Source: Gluconacetobacter takamatsuzukensis
GTDB taxonomy: Bacteria > Pseudomonadota > Alphaproteobacteria > Acetobacterales > Acetobacteraceae
Reading direction: 5' to 3'
DNA length: 64,000 nt
Assembly: GCF_014174275.1 (NCBI RefSeq)
Contig: NZ_JABEQK010000007.1
Location: forward strand, 1-64,000
The position numbers and the translations under genes were made by a program. This document shows positions 18,644 to 58,452 of the stretch, in pieces. The notes beneath the pieces were generated by a model that was given only the letters and a program-made list of their open reading frames with translations, did no database searches and had not been told where the DNA came from. Numbering within the stretch: the stretch's first letter is position 1; each line of letters starts with the position of its first letter.

Positions 18644-18703
18644 AAAACGAACAGGGGTGAAGGGGACGACCGTCCCCTTCCGGCTCCAGGGTGGAACCCT
18701 GGA
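18644..18703 (+). repeat. bipartite hairpin intergenic repeat, copy 1
   Basis: Hairpin A pairs 18659-18668 with 18671-18680 (10 bp, 2-nt loop) and hairpin B pairs 18685-18692 with 18696-18703. The 39 bases from about 18645 to 18683 recur identically at 34843-34881. It lies between the convergent acnB and gabT genes. Confidence 0.8.
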
Positions 18704-20255: not shown

Positions 20256-21938
20256 ATGCATGACGTCATCCTCAGCCTGATCCTGTTGTTTGTCGCCGCT
20301 TTCAGCAGTCTGGCCGCCCGCCTGCTTCCGGTAACCGTCCCCTTGCCGCTGTTGCAGATCGGCCTGGGCGTGCTGGGGTCGATCGCCGGGCTGCATGTCG
20401 CGCTGGACCCCGACATGTTCATGCTGCTGTTCATCCCGCCGCTGCTGTTCCGCGACGCGTTCCATATGCCGATGCGCGAATTCGGGCAGCTGCGCACGAT
20501 CATCTTCGCCCTGGCGGGCCCGATGGTGCTCGCGACGACCATCCTGTGCGGCTACGCGATTCACCTCATGCTGCCGCCCTTGCCGCTGCCGGTCTGCTTC
20601 GCGCTGGCGGCGGTGCTGTCGCCGACCGACGCGGTGGCCGTCGGCGGCATGCTGGGCACCTCGGTGCCGCGCACCATCGTCCATATGCTCGAAGGCGAAT
20701 CCCTGCTCAACGACGCCTCGGGCCTCGTCTGCTTCCGCTTCGCCACCGTCGCGGCCATGACCGGCGCGTTCTCGCTGCGCGGCGCGCTGACCACGTTCAG
20801 CCTGCTGTCGCTGGGCGGCATCGCCATCGGCGTGCTGGTCTGCCTGGCGGCGGCGCGGCTGGACAAGATCCTGCTCGCCCGGGGCTACGACGATCCGCCG
20901 ACGCAGATCACCTTCATGCTGCTGCTGCCCTTCGCCGCCTACATGTCGGCCGAGGCTATCGGCTGCTCGGGCATCCTGGCGGCGGTGGCGGGCGGCATGA
21001 CCATCAAGCTGACGGGCGTGCTGCAGGAAACCCAGATCACCACCCGCCTCCAGGCCCGCACGATGTGGGACATGGTGGGGTTCATCTTCAACTCCGTCAT
21101 CTTCCTGCTGCTGGGCCTGCAACTGCCGGCGCTGGCGACCAACGGCATGGCGCTGGTGCGCGCCGCCGACCGCTCGCCATGGCTGCTGCTGCTGCTGATC
21201 GTGGCCATCCACCTGGCGATGTGCATCCTGCGGGTGGCCGGGCTGGCGCTGATCCTGGGCATCGCGGCCTGGCGCGCCCGGCATGATCACGGGGTGTTCC
21301 GCTGGCCCGGCTGGCGCGGCCTGCTCGTCACCACCGTCGCGGGCGTGCGCGGCGCCGTCACGCTGGCGGCGGTGCTGTCGCTGCCCCAGGCGGCGGACGG
21401 CGTGGCGGGCTTTCCCGCGCGCGACCTGCTGGTGACGGTGGCGGTGGGGGTCATCCTGGTGTCGCTGCTGACGGCCAGCTTCTCGCTGCCCTGGCTGACC
21501 AGGGGCCTGATGGACGGCCTGGTCGACCCCCAGGCGCGCGAGGTCAGCTGGGCCCGCCTGGTCCTGGTGCGCACGATGCTGCGCGCGATGCGCGAGGAGC
21601 AGCAGGGCCTGACCACCCGCGCCAAGGCCCGCGACGAGGCCGGCGAAATGCGGATCGAGATCATCGCCCGGCTGATGCAGGAATATGAAAACCGGCTGAA
21701 CCAGCTCCGCCGCAACAGCAATGGCGAGGCCAGCGCCGCCCAGATCGTCTCCATCCGCCGCATGCGCCTGGAACTGGCGCTGAGGCTGAACAACCTGCGC
21801 ACCTCGCGGATCGAACTGCGCAACCTGCGCGACGCGCAATATATCAATGACGAGACCGAATCCGTCCTGATGCAGGAAATGGATTACGAGGAGCAGGTGC
21901 TGAGGAACCGCGCCCGCAGCCTCCCCCGCGTCGGCTAA
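20256..21938 (+). CDS. CPA1-family Na+/H+ antiporter
   Basis: 560 aa from the ATG at 20256, chosen because the protein then opens directly into the first membrane helix (MHDVILSLILLFVAAFSSLA); the frame is open further upstream but that part is not membrane-like. About twelve hydrophobic helices, with the exchanger motifs LSPTDAVAVGGML and LEGESLLNDASGL, where Asp carries the ions. A charged, alpha-helical cytoplasmic tail of roughly 140 residues follows (from about residue 420). It exchanges protons for Na+ or K+ at the inner membrane. The ribosome site is poor. A palindromic repeat element begins inside its stop codon. Confidence 0.88.
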   Translation: MHDVILSLILLFVAAFSSLAARLLPVTVPLPLLQIGLGVLGSIAGLHVALDPDMFMLLFIPPLLFRDAFHMPMREFGQLRTIIFALAGPMVLATTILCGYAIHLMLPPLPLPVCFALAAVLSPTDAVAVGGMLGTSVPRTIVHMLEGESLLNDASGLVCFRFATVAAMTGAFSLRGALTTFSLLSLGGIAIGVLVCLAAARLDKILLARGYDDPPTQITFMLLLPFAAYMSAEAIGCSGILAAVAGGMTIKLTGVLQETQITTRLQARTMWDMVGFIFNSVIFLLLGLQLPALATNGMALVRAADRSPWLLLLLIVAIHLAMCILRVAGLALILGIAAWRARHDHGVFRWPGWRGLLVTTVAGVRGAVTLAAVLSLPQAADGVAGFPARDLLVTVAVGVILVSLLTASFSLPWLTRGLMDGLVDPQAREVSWARLVLVRTMLRAMREEQQGLTTRAKARDEAGEMRIEIIARLMQEYENRLNQLRRNSNGEASAAQIVSIRRMRLELALRLNNLRTSRIELRNLRDAQYINDETESVLMQEMDYEEQVLRNRARSLPRVG

Positions 21939-22102
21939 ATCCTGCCCGTCACCGCGCGCTGGCGGCGGTCCGACGCGCATTTCCTGCGCTTCGCTGCTCA
22001 CGGCCCATCAGGCCGCTCCGCTGCGATGCTCGGAAACGCACGCCGGCCGCGGCCCGTGCCGGGCCGCTCCCACTCACCAGCCCACGGTGCCGGGCAGGAT
22101 TT
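21937..22102 (+). repeat. stop-codon-abutting palindromic element, copy 1
   Basis: 166 bp with terminal inverted repeats 21937-21962 and 22077-22102 (23 of 26 bases match). It begins within the antiporter TAA. The internal core GGCCGCTCCGCTGCGATGCT lies at 22011-22030. A degenerate half copy (GCGCTTCGATGTTCGGAAAC and on) follows at about 22165-22240. No gene lies in 21939-22278. Confidence 0.8.
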
Positions 22103-22278
22103 CCCACCGGTCGGGTCGATAGCGGTCCGTCTGGATCTGGGGGCGCCCTGCGGGCACTTTCCGCGCTTCGATGTTCGGAAACGCATGCCGGGCGCGGTCA
22201 TTGCGGGCCGCGCCCGTTCGCAGGCCCTATGCCGGGCCGGCGTTGGTGCCGGGGGGCCGGCACCGGGTCGCGCTGATA

Positions 22279-34783: not shown

Positions 34784-34898
34784 GCGGGGCTTTGCCCCGC
34801 ACCCCGCCAAAGGCAGTCGCCTTTGGAAACCAGTCGTTGGGGAAACGAACAGGGGTGAAGGGGACGACCGTCCCCTTCCGGGTTCGGGCAGAGCCCGA
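34784..34898 (+). repeat. two bipartite hairpin repeats, head to head
   Basis: First unit: 34784-34790 with 34794-34800, and 34807-34814 with 34819-34826; read on the reverse strand it matches the unit at 58369. Second unit: 34857-34866 with 34869-34878, and 34884-34889 with 34893-34898; 34843-34881 is identical to the copy near 18645. The array fills the 141-bp gap between the two HAD genes and starts right after the first stop. Confidence 0.8.
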
Positions 34899-45630: not shown

Positions 45631-45690
45631 TAACGAATGGGGGTGAAGGGAGGGCGCCCGCCCTTCCGGGTGCAGGACAGAGCCCTGCGA
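45631..45690 (+). repeat. bipartite hairpin repeat, diverged copy
   Basis: Same layout as the copies near 18645 and 34843: lead AACGAATGGGGGTGAAGG, hairpin A (45651-45656 with 45659-45664), spacer, hairpin B (45672-45676 with 45684-45688). It lies between the convergent kinase and TonB receptor genes. Confidence 0.6.
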
Positions 45691-50316: not shown

Positions 50317-51078
50317 TCAGCCGGCCGCGATATCCGCCAGCAGGATCACGGAATCCTCGCTCGCCACGACGATGAATTGCGTCTCGCCGTCGATCCGTGC
50401 CCCATCGCCGGGGCCCAGGCACGCGCTGTCCAGCGTGACGGTGCCCCGCACCACCACCAGATAGAGCGCGCGGCCCGGCGTGGTCCGGTAACACGCGCCT
50501 TCACCCTGCGGGATCGCCGCATGCAGCAGCCGGGCGCGGGCACGCAGCACCACCGGCGCGCCATCGGCAATGGTGCCGACATCCTCCGGGTCATCCTCGG
50601 GAAAGCCGGAGGCCAGAATGCGGAAACCCCCATCCTCCAGCCCGGCAAAGGCCGGCCGCGCCTCCTGCGCCGGGGTGCCCCCCTCCTCGTCGGGCAGAAA
50701 CCAGAATTGCAGGAAAGACGCCCCGGCCGAACCCGCCCGCCAGCCCATCGACCGGCACCCGGCGGCGGCCGAGACCAGATGCAGCCCCCCGGTCCCGATG
50801 GTCTCGTCCGCAAACAGCGCGCTGTGCGCCACAAGCGCGCCGTCGATCACCCAGCTTGCGATATCGACATCCTGTTCCGGCCCCAGCCCATAATCGGCAT
50901 CGGCGGCCAGCTGCACCCTGTTGACCACGCGCAGGCGGCCGTCATGGACATGCAGCGGGTCCTGGTACGGCCCGAAGGCGAAATGGCAGTGCAGCACCGC
51001 ATCGCCCTGCCGCACTTCGCCCAGGCTGCCGGCACGCCGGATCGCGATCATCGGCTCCAGATCCTTCTCCTCAGCCAT
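50317..51078 (-). CDS. pirin-like cupin protein lacking metal ligands
   Basis: 253 aa; the start at 51078 overlaps the stop of the outer-membrane factor gene by 8 bases. The pattern is that of YhhW-type pirins (HCHFAFGPYQDPLHVHDGRL, ASWVIDGALVAHSALF, LQFWFLPDEEGG). In YhhW the metal site is made by HPHRDMEI; here the same place reads GPEQDVDI, and the later conserved HS-E site reads CRSMG. The enzyme site is therefore probably lost. It may be a regulatory pirin. Function in the efflux operon unknown. Confidence 0.75.
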   Translation of the reverse strand: MAEEKDLEPMIAIRRAGSLGEVRQGDAVLHCHFAFGPYQDPLHVHDGRLRVVNRVQLAADADYGLGPEQDVDIASWVIDGALVAHSALFADETIGTGGLHLVSAAAGCRSMGWRAGSAGASFLQFWFLPDEEGGTPAQEARPAFAGLEDGGFRILASGFPEDDPEDVGTIADGAPVVLRARARLLHAAIPQGEGACYRTTPGRALYLVVVRGTVTLDSACLGPGDGARIDGETQFIVVASEDSVILLADIAAG

Positions 51079-52606
51079 GCGATGGCGGGGCGTCAGGATA
51101 GGTCCCCTCCCACCCGCCGCCAAGCGCGCGGTAAAGCTGCGTCACGGCGCGCGAGATTTCCGTCGTCGCATCCACAAAGCGCGCCTGCGACGCCAGAAGC
51201 TGGTTCTGCACCGTCAGCACGGTCAGGAAGTCCGAAGACCCGGCCTTGTATTGTGCCCGCGCGGTCTCGACCGCGATCTCGTTCTCCCGCACCGCCTCGC
51301 GCAGCCGGTCGCGCTCGGACTGCGCGGTCGCCAGGTCGGCCATCGCATCGTCGACCTCCTGCCACGCCTTCAGCACGGTCCGCCGCAGCATGATCGCGGC
51401 CTCCTTCTGCTGCGCCTTGCGCAGGCGAAGCTGCCCGGTCAGCCGCCCGCCCTCGAACAGCGGCAGGGTGGCGGTCGGCCCGAACCCGTACTGGCGCGAC
51501 GCCCACGATCCCAGCCCGCTGAACTGCAACGCCTGGATATCCAGGCTCCCCGACAGCGTGATGCGCGGGAAGAAATCGGCCACCGCCACGCCCACGCTGG
51601 CGGTGGCGACATGCAGCCGCTCCTCCGCCATGCGGATATCCGGCCGCCGCTCGGCCAGTTGCGACGGCAGCCCCACCGGCAACTCGGCCGGCACGGGCGG
51701 AATGGGCGCCGGCCTGCCCAGCTGCGCATTCAGCGCCCCGGGCTCCCGCGCCACCAGAAAGCTCAGCGCATTGAGCAAATGTACCTGCTGCCGCTCCAGC
51801 GGCGAACGCTGGGCCTCGAAACCGCGCAACTGCCCCGTCGAATCCGCCACGTCCAGCCGCGTCGCGGCCCCCTGGTCGAAACGCATCGTCGTCAGCCGCA
51901 CGCTGTCGCGCGCGATGGCGATATTGTGGTCCAGAATGGCCATCCGCGCCTGCACGCCGCGCAGGTCGATATAATCCTGCGCGGTCTCGGCCATCAGCGA
52001 CACCAGCACGTCGCGGCGCATATCCTCGCTGGCCTGCATCGCCGCCGTGGCCGCCTCGACCTGCCGGCGCACATGCCCCCACAGATCGACTTCCCACGAG
52101 GCATTCATGCCGTATTGCGGCAGGTTGAACGACGGGTTGCCGATGCTGCCGGGCAGCGCGGTGGGGCCGAACCCCTGCGTGCCGCTGGCAATCGTGCCCG
52201 CCTGCTCGCGCTCCATGGTGCCCAGCAGGCCCAGAATGCCGTTGGTGCTGGCCCGTTCGCGGGCATAGGACGCATTGGCCTCGACATGCGGAAACTGCGC
52301 CGCGCTGGCAATCCGCCGCTCGGCCGCACTTTCCATCAACCGCAGCGACGCGGCCTGAAGGTCGAGATTCGCCGCCGCGACATCCTGCTCCAGCGCCGTC
52401 AGCACCGGGTCGTCGAACTGCCGCCACCAGCGCGGATCGGTCGAGGCCACGACCGGATGGCTGGCCCCCGGCGCCACGCTCTGGTGCCACGCGACGGCAC
52501 TCCCGACCGCCGGCTTGCGATAATCGGGCCCAACCGTGCAGGCACCCAGCGCCGCCAGGCAAAGGCCCGCCAGCGCCCCGCGCGCAGTCCATCCGACGCA
52601 ACGCAT
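51071..52606 (-). CDS. outer-membrane efflux lipoprotein (NodT/OprM type)
   Basis: 511 aa from the ATG at 52606, which opens a lipoprotein signal (ALAGLCLAALGAC-T). VGPDYRKPAVGSAVAWHQ just after the lipid site and the two long TolC-like alpha-hairpin repeats (QDYIDLRGVQARMAILDHNI, DDAMADLATAQSERDRLREA) mark the RND/MFS outer-membrane factor family. It is the exit duct for the EmrA/EmrB-like pair upstream in the same operon. The frame is open to 52804 but that part is the palindromic element, not gene. Confidence 0.93.
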   Translation of the reverse strand: MRCVGWTARGALAGLCLAALGACTVGPDYRKPAVGSAVAWHQSVAPGASHPVVASTDPRWWRQFDDPVLTALEQDVAAANLDLQAASLRLMESAAERRIASAAQFPHVEANASYARERASTNGILGLLGTMEREQAGTIASGTQGFGPTALPGSIGNPSFNLPQYGMNASWEVDLWGHVRRQVEAATAAMQASEDMRRDVLVSLMAETAQDYIDLRGVQARMAILDHNIAIARDSVRLTTMRFDQGAATRLDVADSTGQLRGFEAQRSPLERQQVHLLNALSFLVAREPGALNAQLGRPAPIPPVPAELPVGLPSQLAERRPDIRMAEERLHVATASVGVAVADFFPRITLSGSLDIQALQFSGLGSWASRQYGFGPTATLPLFEGGRLTGQLRLRKAQQKEAAIMLRRTVLKAWQEVDDAMADLATAQSERDRLREAVRENEIAVETARAQYKAGSSDFLTVLTVQNQLLASQARFVDATTEISRAVTQLYRALGGGWEGTYPDAPPSHG

Positions 52607-52609
52607 GGC

Positions 52610-52773
52610 AAAACCTGCCGGGACATGCGGGCGGGCGAGCGAGAGCGGCCCAACGGGCCGCGCCCGTCGTGTGTTTCCGAGCACCGGAGCGGAGCGGCCT
52701 AAATGGCCGTGAGCACCGGAGCACAGGAAACGCGCGTCGGATCGCCGCCCGCCCGCATGTCCCGGCAGGTTTT
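52610..52773 (-). repeat. stop-codon-abutting palindromic element, copy 2
   Basis: 164 bp with a perfect 28-bp terminal inverted repeat (52610-52637 with 52746-52773). It runs from the last base of the HlyD gene stop to 4 nt before the outer-membrane factor start. The core 20-mer, read on the minus strand, is at 52680-52699. In the sense of the operon its orientation is the same as copy 1 to its upstream gene. Confidence 0.85.
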
Positions 52774-53849
52774 CAGCGCCAGACATAGCGGGCATCGTCG
52801 GCATGGGGGCCAGAGGGCTGCGACGCGGTATCGATGCTGACTTCCACCGACATGCCGACGCGCACCCGGGCGGCCAGCTTCTGGCCGGGGTCGAAGGTCA
52901 GCTTGACCGGCACACGCTGCACGACCTTGGTGAAATTGCCCGTCGCATTGTCCGGCTGGATCGGCGCAAAGGCCACGCCGGTCGCAGGCGCCAGCGAATC
53001 CACATGCGCCTTCAGCGGATGGCCGGGAAAGGTATCGACCCACACGGTCGCACTCTGCCCCGTCTGCACCTTCGTCAATTGCGTTTCCTGGTAATTCGCC
53101 AGCACATACGCCGCTTGCGTGGGCACGACGGCCAGGATGGCGGTGCCGGGATGCACATAGGCACCCACCCGCACCCCGCGCTCGCCGACAATGCCGGCGA
53201 CGGGGGCAGGGATCGTGCAGTAGGACAGGTTCAGCTCCGCCTGCCGCGCATCGCCCTGCGCCTGCAACAATTCGCCCTGCGCGCGCGCAAGCTGGGCCTT
53301 CAGCACGTCCACCTGGCGGACGGCGCTGTCGGTCGCGGCCTCGTCGCGCGCCATGGCGGCCTCGGTTTCCTTCTCGCGCGCCTCGGTGGCCTGCTTCTGC
53401 TCCACCGTGCCCGCCCCGCCCGACGACAGGTCGCGATAGCGCGCCATGTTCTGGCGCGCGAATTGCAGCGTCGCCCGGTCGGCCTGCACCGCCGCCCGCG
53501 CCCCCGCGATCACCGAATCCTGCCGCGCCAGCTCGGCCTCCAGGTTGCGCACCGCCCCCTGCGCGGCCATCAGCCGGCCGCGCGCGACATCCAGCGCGGC
53601 GTGGTAATCGTCGTCCTCGATATGGGCCAGCTCGTCGCCCGCATGCACGGCCTCGTTATCCTCGGCCAGCACCCGGTCGATGCGGCCGGACACCTTAGGG
53701 GCAACGGCGGTGAAATCGGCGGTGACGTAAGCATCGTTGGTGTACTGGTCGACACCGTTGCCCAGCACCAGCCGACTGCCGCCCCAGGCGGCAAGCGCAA
53801 GCACGATGGCGGTACTGCCGGCGTAAAGCAGGGGTTTTCTGTAGATCAT
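52773..53849 (-). CDS. HlyD/EmrA-type membrane fusion protein
   Basis: 358 aa. N-terminal membrane anchor (LLYAGSTAIVLALAAWGG), then the lipoyl/barrel halves TNDAYVTADFTAVAPKVSGR and IPAPVAGIVGERGVRVGAYV around a long coiled coil with LSSGGAGTVEQKQATEAREK, and the C-terminal barrel. It links the MFS pump to the outer-membrane factor. The MFS gene lies 21 bp upstream, so they are co-transcribed. Confidence 0.93.
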   Translation of the reverse strand: MIYRKPLLYAGSTAIVLALAAWGGSRLVLGNGVDQYTNDAYVTADFTAVAPKVSGRIDRVLAEDNEAVHAGDELAHIEDDDYHAALDVARGRLMAAQGAVRNLEAELARQDSVIAGARAAVQADRATLQFARQNMARYRDLSSGGAGTVEQKQATEAREKETEAAMARDEAATDSAVRQVDVLKAQLARAQGELLQAQGDARQAELNLSYCTIPAPVAGIVGERGVRVGAYVHPGTAILAVVPTQAAYVLANYQETQLTKVQTGQSATVWVDTFPGHPLKAHVDSLAPATGVAFAPIQPDNATGNFTKVVQRVPVKLTFDPGQKLAARVRVGMSVEVSIDTASQPSGPHADDARYVWR

Positions 53850-55695: not shown

Positions 55696-56616
55696 ATGCG
55701 TGGATACGATCTCGACCTGCTGCGCTTCCTTCAGGTCCTGGTGGAAGAACAGAGCGTGTCCGGCGCGGCACGGCGCATGCATGTCAGCGAACCGGCGATG
55801 AGCCGCCACCTGGCCAAATTGCGCACCGTGTTCGGCGACCCGATCCTGGTGCCCTCGGGCCGGCACCTCATCGCCTCGGCCTTCGCGCTGGGCATCCGCG
55901 ACCGGGTGCAGGAGGTCGTGCGCGCCGCCGACGGGCTGATCGAAACCCGGGCACTGGCCGACCTGCGCAACATGGCGCCCAAATTCACCATCCGCGCCAA
56001 CGACGTCGTCATCGCCCCGCTGGCGCTGCCGCTGATGCGGGCGCTGCGGCACGACTGCCCGAACTGCGAACTGGTCTTCGCGCCCGAAGTCGACGACGCC
56101 GCCAACCAGGCCCTGCGCGAGGACGCGATCGACCTCTATATCGGCGCGACCGACATGCTGAAGCCGGAAATCCGCCGCCAGACCATTTTCTACAACATCA
56201 TGAAGGCGCTGGTCCGCAAGGACCACCCGATCTTCGCCCAGGGCATCACGCCGGAAACCCTGACCCGCTACGACCATATCAGCATCTCGCGCCGCGGCCG
56301 TGCCCACGGCCCGATCGACCGCATCCTGCGCGACCAGCATGGCCTGTCCCGCCGCGTCGTCCTGGTCGTGCCCCACTACAAGGCGATGATCGACAGCATG
56401 CGCGACACGGACCTGATCGTGACCCTGCCCGACATGGCCCTCTACCGGGTACCGCTGGCCGAACGCGGCCTGGCGCTGTTCGACTACCCGTTCCCGCTGC
56501 CTCGCGTCGAAGCCTTCCAGGCCTGGCACCCCAGGCGCGACAACGACCCGGTCCACCGCTGGCTGCGCGAAACCACCTTCCGCGTCGCCCGCCAGATCCA
56601 GAGCGAACTGAATTGA
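55696..56616 (+). CDS. LysR-family regulator (NodD-like) of the efflux operon
   Basis: 306 aa. Winged helix DLDLLRFLQVLVEEQSVSGAARRMHVSEPAMSRHLAKLR with FGDPILVPSGR; the ligand domain has IRANDVVIAPLALPLMRAL and LYIGATDML. The 'LDLLxxLxVLxEExSVSxAA' type opening is that of the NodD/NahR/PcpR subgroup, which answers to aromatic compounds. Its divergence from the efflux pump gene suggests it controls that operon (inference). A palindromic element begins 2 bp after its stop. Confidence 0.9.
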   Translation: MRGYDLDLLRFLQVLVEEQSVSGAARRMHVSEPAMSRHLAKLRTVFGDPILVPSGRHLIASAFALGIRDRVQEVVRAADGLIETRALADLRNMAPKFTIRANDVVIAPLALPLMRALRHDCPNCELVFAPEVDDAANQALREDAIDLYIGATDMLKPEIRRQTIFYNIMKALVRKDHPIFAQGITPETLTRYDHISISRRGRAHGPIDRILRDQHGLSRRVVLVVPHYKAMIDSMRDTDLIVTLPDMALYRVPLAERGLALFDYPFPLPRVEAFQAWHPRRDNDPVHRWLRETTFRVARQIQSELN

Positions 56617-56618
56617 CC

Positions 56619-56756
56619 AAAGTCACCCTGCCGGCGATCCGACACGCATTTTCTGCGCTTCGCGGCGGGCGGCCATCAAGGCCGCTCCGCTCCGATGCTC
56701 GAAAATACACGCCGGCCGTGCCGCTACGCGGCACTCTCACTCGGCAGGCCGACTTT
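56619..56756 (+). repeat. stop-codon-abutting palindromic element, copy 3
   Basis: 138-bp core from AAAGTC to GACTTT, two bases after the LysR stop. The arms pair as AAAGTC..CCTGCCG with CGGCAGG..GACTTT. The core 20-mer GGCCGCTCCGCTCCGATGCT is at 56680-56699. It separates the convergent LysR and GntR genes. Confidence 0.85.
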
Positions 56757-56832
56757 GAAACACCCTCATGCCCGGCCGACCCCCGTCGCCCTCAGCCCGC
56801 GCGCACGCGCCGGCCACGCAACGGGTCGCCCG

Positions 56833-57561: not shown

Positions 57562-57727
57562 ATCTCTCTCCTCTAGGCTGGCTTTCGAAGAGACATATTA
57601 CATCCGCGCACCCCTGTCGACGCACCGGCGGGGCAGGGACCAGGCCCGATATGGCAAAAGACGCGCAAAAATGCGGCCGGAACACCCGATCGAACCCGAC
57701 GGGCACCCCGGCCGGCACGGCCCCCTT

Positions 57728-57891
57728 AGAGGCTGTTTGCAAAGTCACCCTGCTGGCGATCCGACGCGCATTTTCTCCGCTTCGGTACTCACGGCCATCA
57801 AGGCCGCTCCGTTCCGATGCTCAAAAATACACGCCGGCCATGCCGCTGCGCGGCACTCTCGCTCAGCAGGCCGACTTTTCAAACAGCCTCT
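57728..57891 (+). repeat. stop-codon-abutting palindromic element, copy 4
   Basis: 164 bp; outer terminal repeats 57728-57746 and 57873-57891 match at 18 of 19 bases. The 138-bp core 57741-57878 has the same length as copy 3. Its right end meets the stop codon of the Rid-family gene, whose TAA begins here. The core 20-mer is at 57802-57821 with one change. Confidence 0.85.
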
Positions 57892-58322
57892 TACAGCGAA
57901 ATCCGGATATGCTTCGTTTCCAGCGATCCCGCGCCGCGATAGGCGGTAATCTCGATCTCGAAGAGGTATTCCGGCCCGCCGAGCGGCGCGCAGGTGACGC
58001 AGCTCGTGGGGTCGATGCCGCGATATTTCTCCCCGATCAGTTCCATGACCTCCTTCACGTCCTCCTGGCGCGGAATGAAGACGCGCGAGCGGATCACGTC
58101 GGCCAGCGACGACCCCACCGCCGCCAGCGCGCCCTCGACATTGCGGAACGCCTGCTCGGCCTGCGCCCGCGCCGTCTCCGGCATCCGGCGTGTCTTGTAG
58201 TCGCGCCCCGCCGTCAGCGACATGAAAATCCACTCGCCCAGCACCGTAACGCGCGAATAGCTTTCCTTGTCTTCAAGGATACTACCCGATTTTACCTTGA
58301 TGATTTCCTTGATCACACTCAT
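57891..58322 (-). CDS. Rid-family (YjgF/YER057c/UK114) protein, Arg-less type
   Basis: 143 aa. Starts may be the ATG at 58322, or the GTG two codons on, which has a better spaced GAGGAG. The RidA fold is seen (GEWIFMSLTAGRDYKTRRMP, QAEQAFRNVEGALAAVGSSL, VRSR-like VIRSRVFIPRQEDVKEVME, EYLFEIEITAYRG). RidA itself has a catalytic Arg in the ARSCV motif; here the place reads PTSCVTCAP, so imine deaminase activity is not expected. Members lacking this Arg are known in other Rid subfamilies. It shares a minus-strand operon with the SDR and LLM genes. Confidence 0.88.
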   Translation of the reverse strand: MSVIKEIIKVKSGSILEDKESYSRVTVLGEWIFMSLTAGRDYKTRRMPETARAQAEQAFRNVEGALAAVGSSLADVIRSRVFIPRQEDVKEVMELIGEKYRGIDPTSCVTCAPLGGPEYLFEIEITAYRGAGSLETKHIRISL

Positions 58323-58368
58323 CTCCTCACCCGACCAAGCGACGCCGGCACCCAACACGAATGGGTTT

Positions 58369-58407
58369 CCAAAGGGCGACCGCCCTTTGGTGGGTCAAGG
58401 GCAAAGC
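58369..58407 (+). repeat. bipartite hairpin repeat
   Basis: Perfect 10-bp hairpin 58369-58378 with 58381-58390 (2-nt loop), then CAAGGGC/GCCCTTG around a 3-nt loop at about 58396-58412. It lies between the SDR and Rid genes and matches the reversed unit at 34784-34826. Confidence 0.7.
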
Positions 58408-58452
58408 CCTTGTCTGCATCCCCCACGCACCAGGCTTCCGGCAAACGGCCCA

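Follow-up and report, generated by a model that had tools for sequence, protein, structure and literature searches.

Palindromic elements of about 164 bp in Gluconacetobacter lie mainly at stop codons in one orientation, and some carry IS5-like ends

Several families of small dispersed repeats have been described in bacteria. REP sequences are palindromes of 20–40 bp associated with a GTAG/CGTC tag (PMC3733652). Like the elements reported here, RUP of Streptococcus pneumoniae (IS630-Spn1) and the Correia/NEMIS elements are small and have IS-like terminal repeats, a short target duplication and about 100 copies (PMC2229807, PMC10969869). The enterobacterial elements YPAL (RU-2, 168 bp) and ERIC (RU-1) are similar in size and palindromy; further points of likeness are, for YPAL, expression together with upstream genes and the existence of empty and filled sites and, for ERIC, an orientation-dependent effect on upstream transcripts (PMC2229807). 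In the titles and abstract openings listed from one open-licence library we found no report of the Gluconacetobacter family.

The window analysed here, the whole stretch of 64,000 nucleotides at the start of a contig of Gluconacetobacter takamatsuzukensis, contains four copies. The initial annotation, made from the letters alone, had recognised them by a common 20-mer, which indeed occurs four times at ≤3 mismatches against 0.02 occurrences expected from shuffled sequences. Copy 1 (21937..22102, + strand, strands being given as that of the motif GGCCGCTCCG...) starts inside the stop codon (TAA, ending at 21938) of a cation/proton antiporter-like gene (20256-21938, +), and its better-folding strand is the opposite one. 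Copy 2 (52610..52773, – strand) separates the TGA of an HlyD-like gene (52773-53849, complement) from the start of the gene that follows (51071-52606, complement); its outer arms match at 28/28 positions, as had been stated. For the other two copies the boundaries needed revision. Copy 3 (56617..56768, +) stands directly 3′ of the stop codon (TGA) of a LysR-type gene (55696-56616, +) and no longer has an outer 5′ arm. Copy 4 proper (57729..57890, +) belongs to a subtype with IS5-like ends, GAGGCTGTTTGCAAAG / CTTTTCAAACAGCCTC, and is flanked by TTA target-site duplications at 57726..57728 and 57891..57893, the right one being also the complement of the TAA stop of a Rid-like gene. A stop codon thus adjoins all four copies, as annotated; relative to the adjoining gene copies 1–3 are oriented alike and copy 4 is reversed, a rare type whose 3′ edge adjoins the stop, here that of the Rid-like gene (complement strand, ending at 57891). 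The gene names used here come from reading the translations and from the initial annotation. In an alignment of 139 nt, copy 3 is 89% identical to copy 4, copy 1 aligns at 65%, and the double change CCTGCCG / CCTGCTG between copies 3 and 4 is present in the sequence. A probable fragment of a further copy (22164..22207, +, 44 nt, 82% identity to part of copy 1) is absent from the covariance-model matches described below. An Rfam scan of the window gave 0 matches above the gathering score.

Other repeats occur in the same DNA. A dispersed repeat of the AAACGAACAGGGGTGAAGGGGACGACCGTCCCCTTCCGG type is found at 18645-18690, 34843-34888 and 45631-45676 (72-93% alike), and a AAACGAACAGGGGTGAAGGGGACGACCGTCCCCTTCCGG-like sequence follows the element in L148/L098. 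An inverted 43-nt pair (GGGCTTTGCCCCGCACCCCGCCAAAGG..., 34787-34829 and 58367-58409, 74% complementary) possibly represents a further small repeat family.

The four window repeats are part of a much larger palindromic family with a unit of about 164 bp. A motif pattern found 67 places in the same genome, and the reversed-pattern control found 0. The covariance-model search that had been suggested was run with a model built from alignment A1 (48 own copies, of 51 listed); it gave 101 matches at 96 distinct places, recovering 64 of the 67 pattern places and adding 32 not found by the pattern, among them a subtype of about 132 nt and shorter remnants. Beyond this genome, the motif was present in 13/13 searched congeneric genomes and in 4 genomes of other genera of the family Acetobacteraceae, that is in 18 of 80 searched genomes with the own genome counted, and the pattern matched several hundred times across the genus. 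Among the matches listed, named records with the exact motif were Gluconacetobacter species and one Rhodospirillales MAG. Copies 2 and 4 had no match in plasmid records; three stretches matched in viral contigs, which were included in the BLAST set. That the element carries no transposase or other gene is taken from its length, and ORFs spanning it do occur in the ORF lists. Tandem arrays exist, in which the unit recurs about every 162-168 bp. In the arrays L091, L047, L060 and L013, later copies have a mismatched 5′ arm and a repeated 3′ arm, and these arrays are possible VNTR markers.

The consensus is a long hairpin with a 29-pair outer stem, a side hairpin, inner stems and a small apical loop. 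In 54 of 56 copies (the 67 pattern places less 3 and then 8 more) the strand opposite the GGCCGCTCCG motif, antisense to the adjoining gene, folds better, because A.C mismatches of the motif strand are G.U pairs there. At the A1 column pairs 20/149, 64/128, 66/126 and 88/104, G.U is the commonest pair, in every case on the strand antisense to the adjoining gene. Coreless hairpins of about 60 bp whose ends resemble GAGGCTGTTT (L195/L215, L222/L223, L203) may be minimal family members or products of internal deletion, and at one orthologous site (L183 vs L161) one species retains mainly the outer stem, without the core.

We examined the position of the copies with a symmetric edge test, which counts a coding-supported stop whose last base falls between 6 bases outside and 11 bases inside an edge; stops at the motif-5′ edge were sought on the motif strand, those at the opposite edge on its complement. 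The gene calls came from a home-made caller based on codon usage and were not free of noise, the 3′ edge being called differently in L421 and L422, which are identical copies. The test covered 198 copies: places lying 300 bases or less from a locus end had been excluded beforehand, and 27 of the resulting 225 were dropped as later array members or because no edges were found. One further analysis of this set took in 170 of the 198. A stop was detected at the motif-5′ edge in 138 of the 198 copies and at the other edge in 13 (5′ only 129, 3′ only 4, both 9, neither 56). Among 792 control offsets there were 2 plus-strand and 51 minus-strand stops, so 3′-edge stops are at background level (13/198 vs 51/792). 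The 63 copies of the own genome split into 47 with a stop at the 5′ edge only, 1 at the 3′ edge only, 1 at both and 14 at neither; held-out model-only copies from the same genome, not used in setting the edge rule (29 of 32 read), gave 16, 3, 2 and 8, a weaker bias of 16:3. In 30 loci of the near-identical genomes G003 and G012 the counts were 17 vs 2, with 3 at both edges and 8 at neither, and of 67 copies between convergent genes, where each side offers a stop, 54 adjoined the left one and 7 the right one, 5 of these adjoining both. Cross-species counts are not independent, because the copies are partly orthologous and share ancestry; those from the own genome and the held-out set are the safest. 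The relation to stop codons first noticed in four copies is thus strong both genome-wide and in other species.

Comparison of loci with and without the insertion, another check proposed at the outset, was made for copies 2, 3 and 4 (2, 13 and 9 loci read from three sets of orthologous matches); at the empty sites read, the stop codon was already present. At the copy 2 site the stop falls at the same codon in 13/13 congeners, of which 2 have a core with other arms and 1 a remnant. At the copy 3 site it falls at the same codon in 6/6 congeners with 91-95% identity, all without the core, two of them (L286, L287) with remnant-like sequence. For copy 4 a single close orthologous site was found, L254, with the stop and no core. 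A comparison of further sites (13 rows) added L015 against L167, and L100, L108 and L177 against L060/L091, as sites where the stop was already there; the remaining rows were uninformative about the stop. A stop codon brought in by the element itself is ruled out at the sites read.

The initial annotation had also suggested looking for a transposase with matching ends, and one was found in the same genome. The resident IS5-family element is 883 bp long, with ends GAG.CTGTTTGG.AAATC and TTA on both sides, and encodes an intact transposase of 274 aa that matches NF033580 and PF13340/PF01609. Some copies of the small element share its terminal repeats (GAGNCTGTTT...): copy ends GAGGCTGTTTGCAAAG and GAGCCTGTTTGGAAAT are, in some copies, like the IS ends GAGACTGTTTGGAAAATC / GAGCCTGTTTGGGAAATC. 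Mobilisation by the resident IS is putative; only 16 of 198 copies match the IS end within 2 of 18 positions, and for the others it is inferred. Among 30 PF13340 loci, matching ends an IS length apart were seen in one, that of the own genome; further IS copies with matching ends occur in G003 and G012, where an IS that ends in GAGCCTGTTTGGAAAGTC is present many times with near-identical ends. The IS1031 group has a TNA target habit. An equal trinucleotide flanked 17 of 22 IS end pairs, own copy counted, as judged by eye with a pattern that itself demanded TNA. For the small element, exact TNA duplications flank 12 of 59 eligible copies, against a permuted mean of 6.8, and 0 of 5000 shuffles reach 12. 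The family therefore has the marks of IS5-family MITEs: it is short and multi-copy (about 164 bp, 96 places), its terminal repeats resemble in some copies those of a resident autonomous IS, and the target duplication is TNA in both. The suggestion of a non-autonomous mobile element is borne out by these ends and duplications, by the empty sites and by the resident autonomous IS. REP/BIME repeats or integron attC sites share with the family palindromy, a mostly intergenic location directly 3′ of stops and tandem copies, but the unit of about 164 bp, far from the 20–40 bp of REP, together with the IS5-like ends, TNA duplications and dispersed copies makes such an assignment highly improbable.

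The IS served as a control for targeting. Of 52 IS-like ends in 30 loci, 26 were read, identical flanks being counted once; one proved to be a small element, and among the other 25 a stop lay at the edge in 3, against 138 of 198 small copies (p = 3e-8, relatedness ignored). The stop-codon habit is not seen in the resident-type IS's own copies, which probably arose more recently than most small copies, making age a confounder. Target preference of the transposase, as initially envisaged, finds no backing here, and since stops are not clearly in excess at an IS that shares these ends, the source of the bias must lie in retention or in a property peculiar to the small element. Copies with exact duplications are already at stops in 11 of 16 cases (11 at the 5′ edge vs 2 at the 3′ edge, 3 neither), although their polarity is weaker, 11:2 vs 118:2, a borderline difference (p = 0.048). 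Because these copies stand mostly at stops, fast retention and true targeting are not separable by this comparison.

Two alternatives bear on these counts. An ordinary neutral MITE, with TNA targets and loss of damaging insertions accounting for everything, would agree with the TNA duplications and with the fact that TGA and TAA are TNA sites restored by insertion. However, stops make up only 467 of 4435 permitted TNA sites (10.5%) where 138 of 198 copies adjoin one, neutrality predicts no polarity, and 22 of 25 IS ends persist at non-stop sites; we regard this account as distinctly improbable. The second is polar insertion directed to stop codons by the small element's own targeting, coupled for example to transcription or translation termination. 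It fits the contrast between 5′ and 3′ edges, the unbiased IS with the same ends and the presence of the bias in exact-duplication copies, but some of the latter occupy non-stop TNA sites (L141 TCA, L145 TTA) or adjoin the stop with their 3′ edge (L185 and copy 4 of the window), and 5 of 29 held-out copies have a 3′-edge stop. Such directed insertion appears unlikely.

On balance we find it probable that the family consists of IS5-type MITEs retained at stops in one orientation, with arms kept paired by template switching. When the TNA target is part of a TGA or TAA stop codon, insertion would rebuild the stop at no cost to the gene, which makes the site safe and leaves the polarity in need of a further cause. 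Copies would then be retained mainly at stops with the motif strand as the coding strand, probably because they are harmless there or form a useful 3′-UTR hairpin, and selective retention is our preferred reading of both the stop bias and the orientation bias. After insertion, the ends may drift from the sequence used by the transposase, while template switching between the arms (quasi-palindrome correction) would maintain their complementarity and some core exchange between copies may take place. One observation sits poorly with this explanation: the better-folding strand and the mismatches lean antisense, and a sense 3′-UTR role predicts neither.

The outer arms vary more between copies than the inner core, yet remain complementary. 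In A1, 98.4% of cells are paired and 40 of 64 pairs have both-sided changes; because the edge setting required the first three outer pairs to match, those three columns prove nothing by themselves. Double-changed cells number 377 against 97 in shuffled data, and sliding the partner abolishes the signal, so the arms covary well beyond chance. Of 358 double changes in A1, 185 are transitional and 173 transversional, and the latter cannot have passed through a single G.U step. In 67 compared pairs, including 12 in which one copy was seen in two loci, there were 128 double changes vs 97 one-sided ones (21 G.T, 34 A.C, 42 other). Some orthologous pairs differ by whole blocks, with double/one-sided changes of 11/0 (L034/L110), 8/0 (L166/L169) and 8/1 (L027/L155) at a flank identity of 93-98%; many others differ by a few small one-sided changes. 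The own copy L040 is a mosaic, its 5′ arm like that of one species (L166) and its 3′ arm like that of two others (L169/L135), each of which has matching arms; a switch of template between quasi-palindrome arms would produce such a copy. The compensatory change first noted between copies 3 and 4 is therefore real, but it resembles block rewriting of arms more than RNA covariation of the classical kind. A gradual route with G.U intermediates alone is disfavoured by block double changes and by the fact that about half of the double changes are transversional. In the histories of RNA genes, template switching has produced multi-base compensatory changes that re-match a stem in one event (PMC8794818). 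The block-wise, half-transversional pattern seen in these alignments points to such template-switch rewriting rather than to stepwise RNA compensation. Instead of arm rewriting, different elements could have inserted in turn at one stop; the common innermost and outermost bases and the mosaic copy L040 speak against this. Rewriting events would be at most occasional, since 14 matched copies of near-identical genomes differed at three single bases, one of which falls just beyond the element, and had undergone no rewriting. Outer-arm mismatches on the motif strand are A.C rather than G.T in a ratio of 14:7 in own copies and 28:9 in others (pooled A.C 42, G.T 16, p = 0.0009, the species not being independent).

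A function of the hairpin in RNA has to be weighed separately. A role as intrinsic terminator, one of the initial proposals, is ruled out by the lack of a U-tract excess after the hairpin: a T-rich stretch follows 8 of 198 copies on the motif strand, vs 31 of 594 control positions, and 4 of 198 on the opposite strand. A domesticated structured RNA, either a 3′-UTR hairpin that protects or processes the upstream mRNA in the manner of REP or ERIC, or a C-richer strand that aids Rho, is a serious candidate that we would place somewhat short of probable. Stop-codon proximity and polarity are strong, the fold is very stable and the covariation strong; the motif strand, with C/G = 1.24, would suit the Rho variant, and ERIC is described as destabilising upstream transcripts with orientation crucial (PMC2229807). 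Against it stand the missing U-tract, the antisense location of the G.U-pair strand and the occurrence of the copy 2 core in just 2 of 13 congeners. This reading is compatible with an IS5-type origin, and from the sequence a 3′-UTR role of the hairpin is possible. A further, more tentative idea, which we hold to be doubtful, is that of a mobile element with an inbuilt stop-codon polarity, inserted or kept 3′ of the stop in sense orientation and spreading as a modular 3′-UTR hairpin over hundreds of genes of the genus, with its arms rewritten jointly by template switching.

With 96 places in a single genome and several hundred pattern matches in the genus, the family offers a natural experiment on how small mobile elements settle harmlessly at the 3′ ends of genes. 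It also addresses a second question, whether compensatory base changes are invariably a sign that RNA structure is under selection. The double changes at orthologous sites, multi-base and half of them transversional, suggest that mutation alone can yield strong covariation, which is a caution for covariance-based RNA discovery; if the polar-element reading is true, covariation in such elements would be a mutational signature, not proof of RNA function.

The stop-codon polarity and the variable arms that stay complementary set the family apart from an ordinary MITE. Mycobacterial MIRU are dispersed units that occur at DTGA stop/start junctions in operons, also as tandem copies; unlike the Gluconacetobacter family they are not known to be palindromic in this way, they belong to another taxon, and the likeness is one of description only. 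YPAL differs in having duplications of 3 to 26 bp and internal inverted repeats, and the available part of its description, like that of ERIC, gives no stop-codon polarity (PMC2229807; compared by description, not by sequence). With the RNA hairpins attributed to template switching our elements share multi-base compensation and the re-matching of a stem in a single event, but those cases come from RNA gene histories (PMC8794818), whereas here several orthologous cases belong to a dispersed bacterial repeat family. Unlike RUP and Correia elements, the Gluconacetobacter family combines IS5-type ends, a TNA duplication and stop-codon polarity, and in most of its copies the altered arms no longer carry the IS ends.
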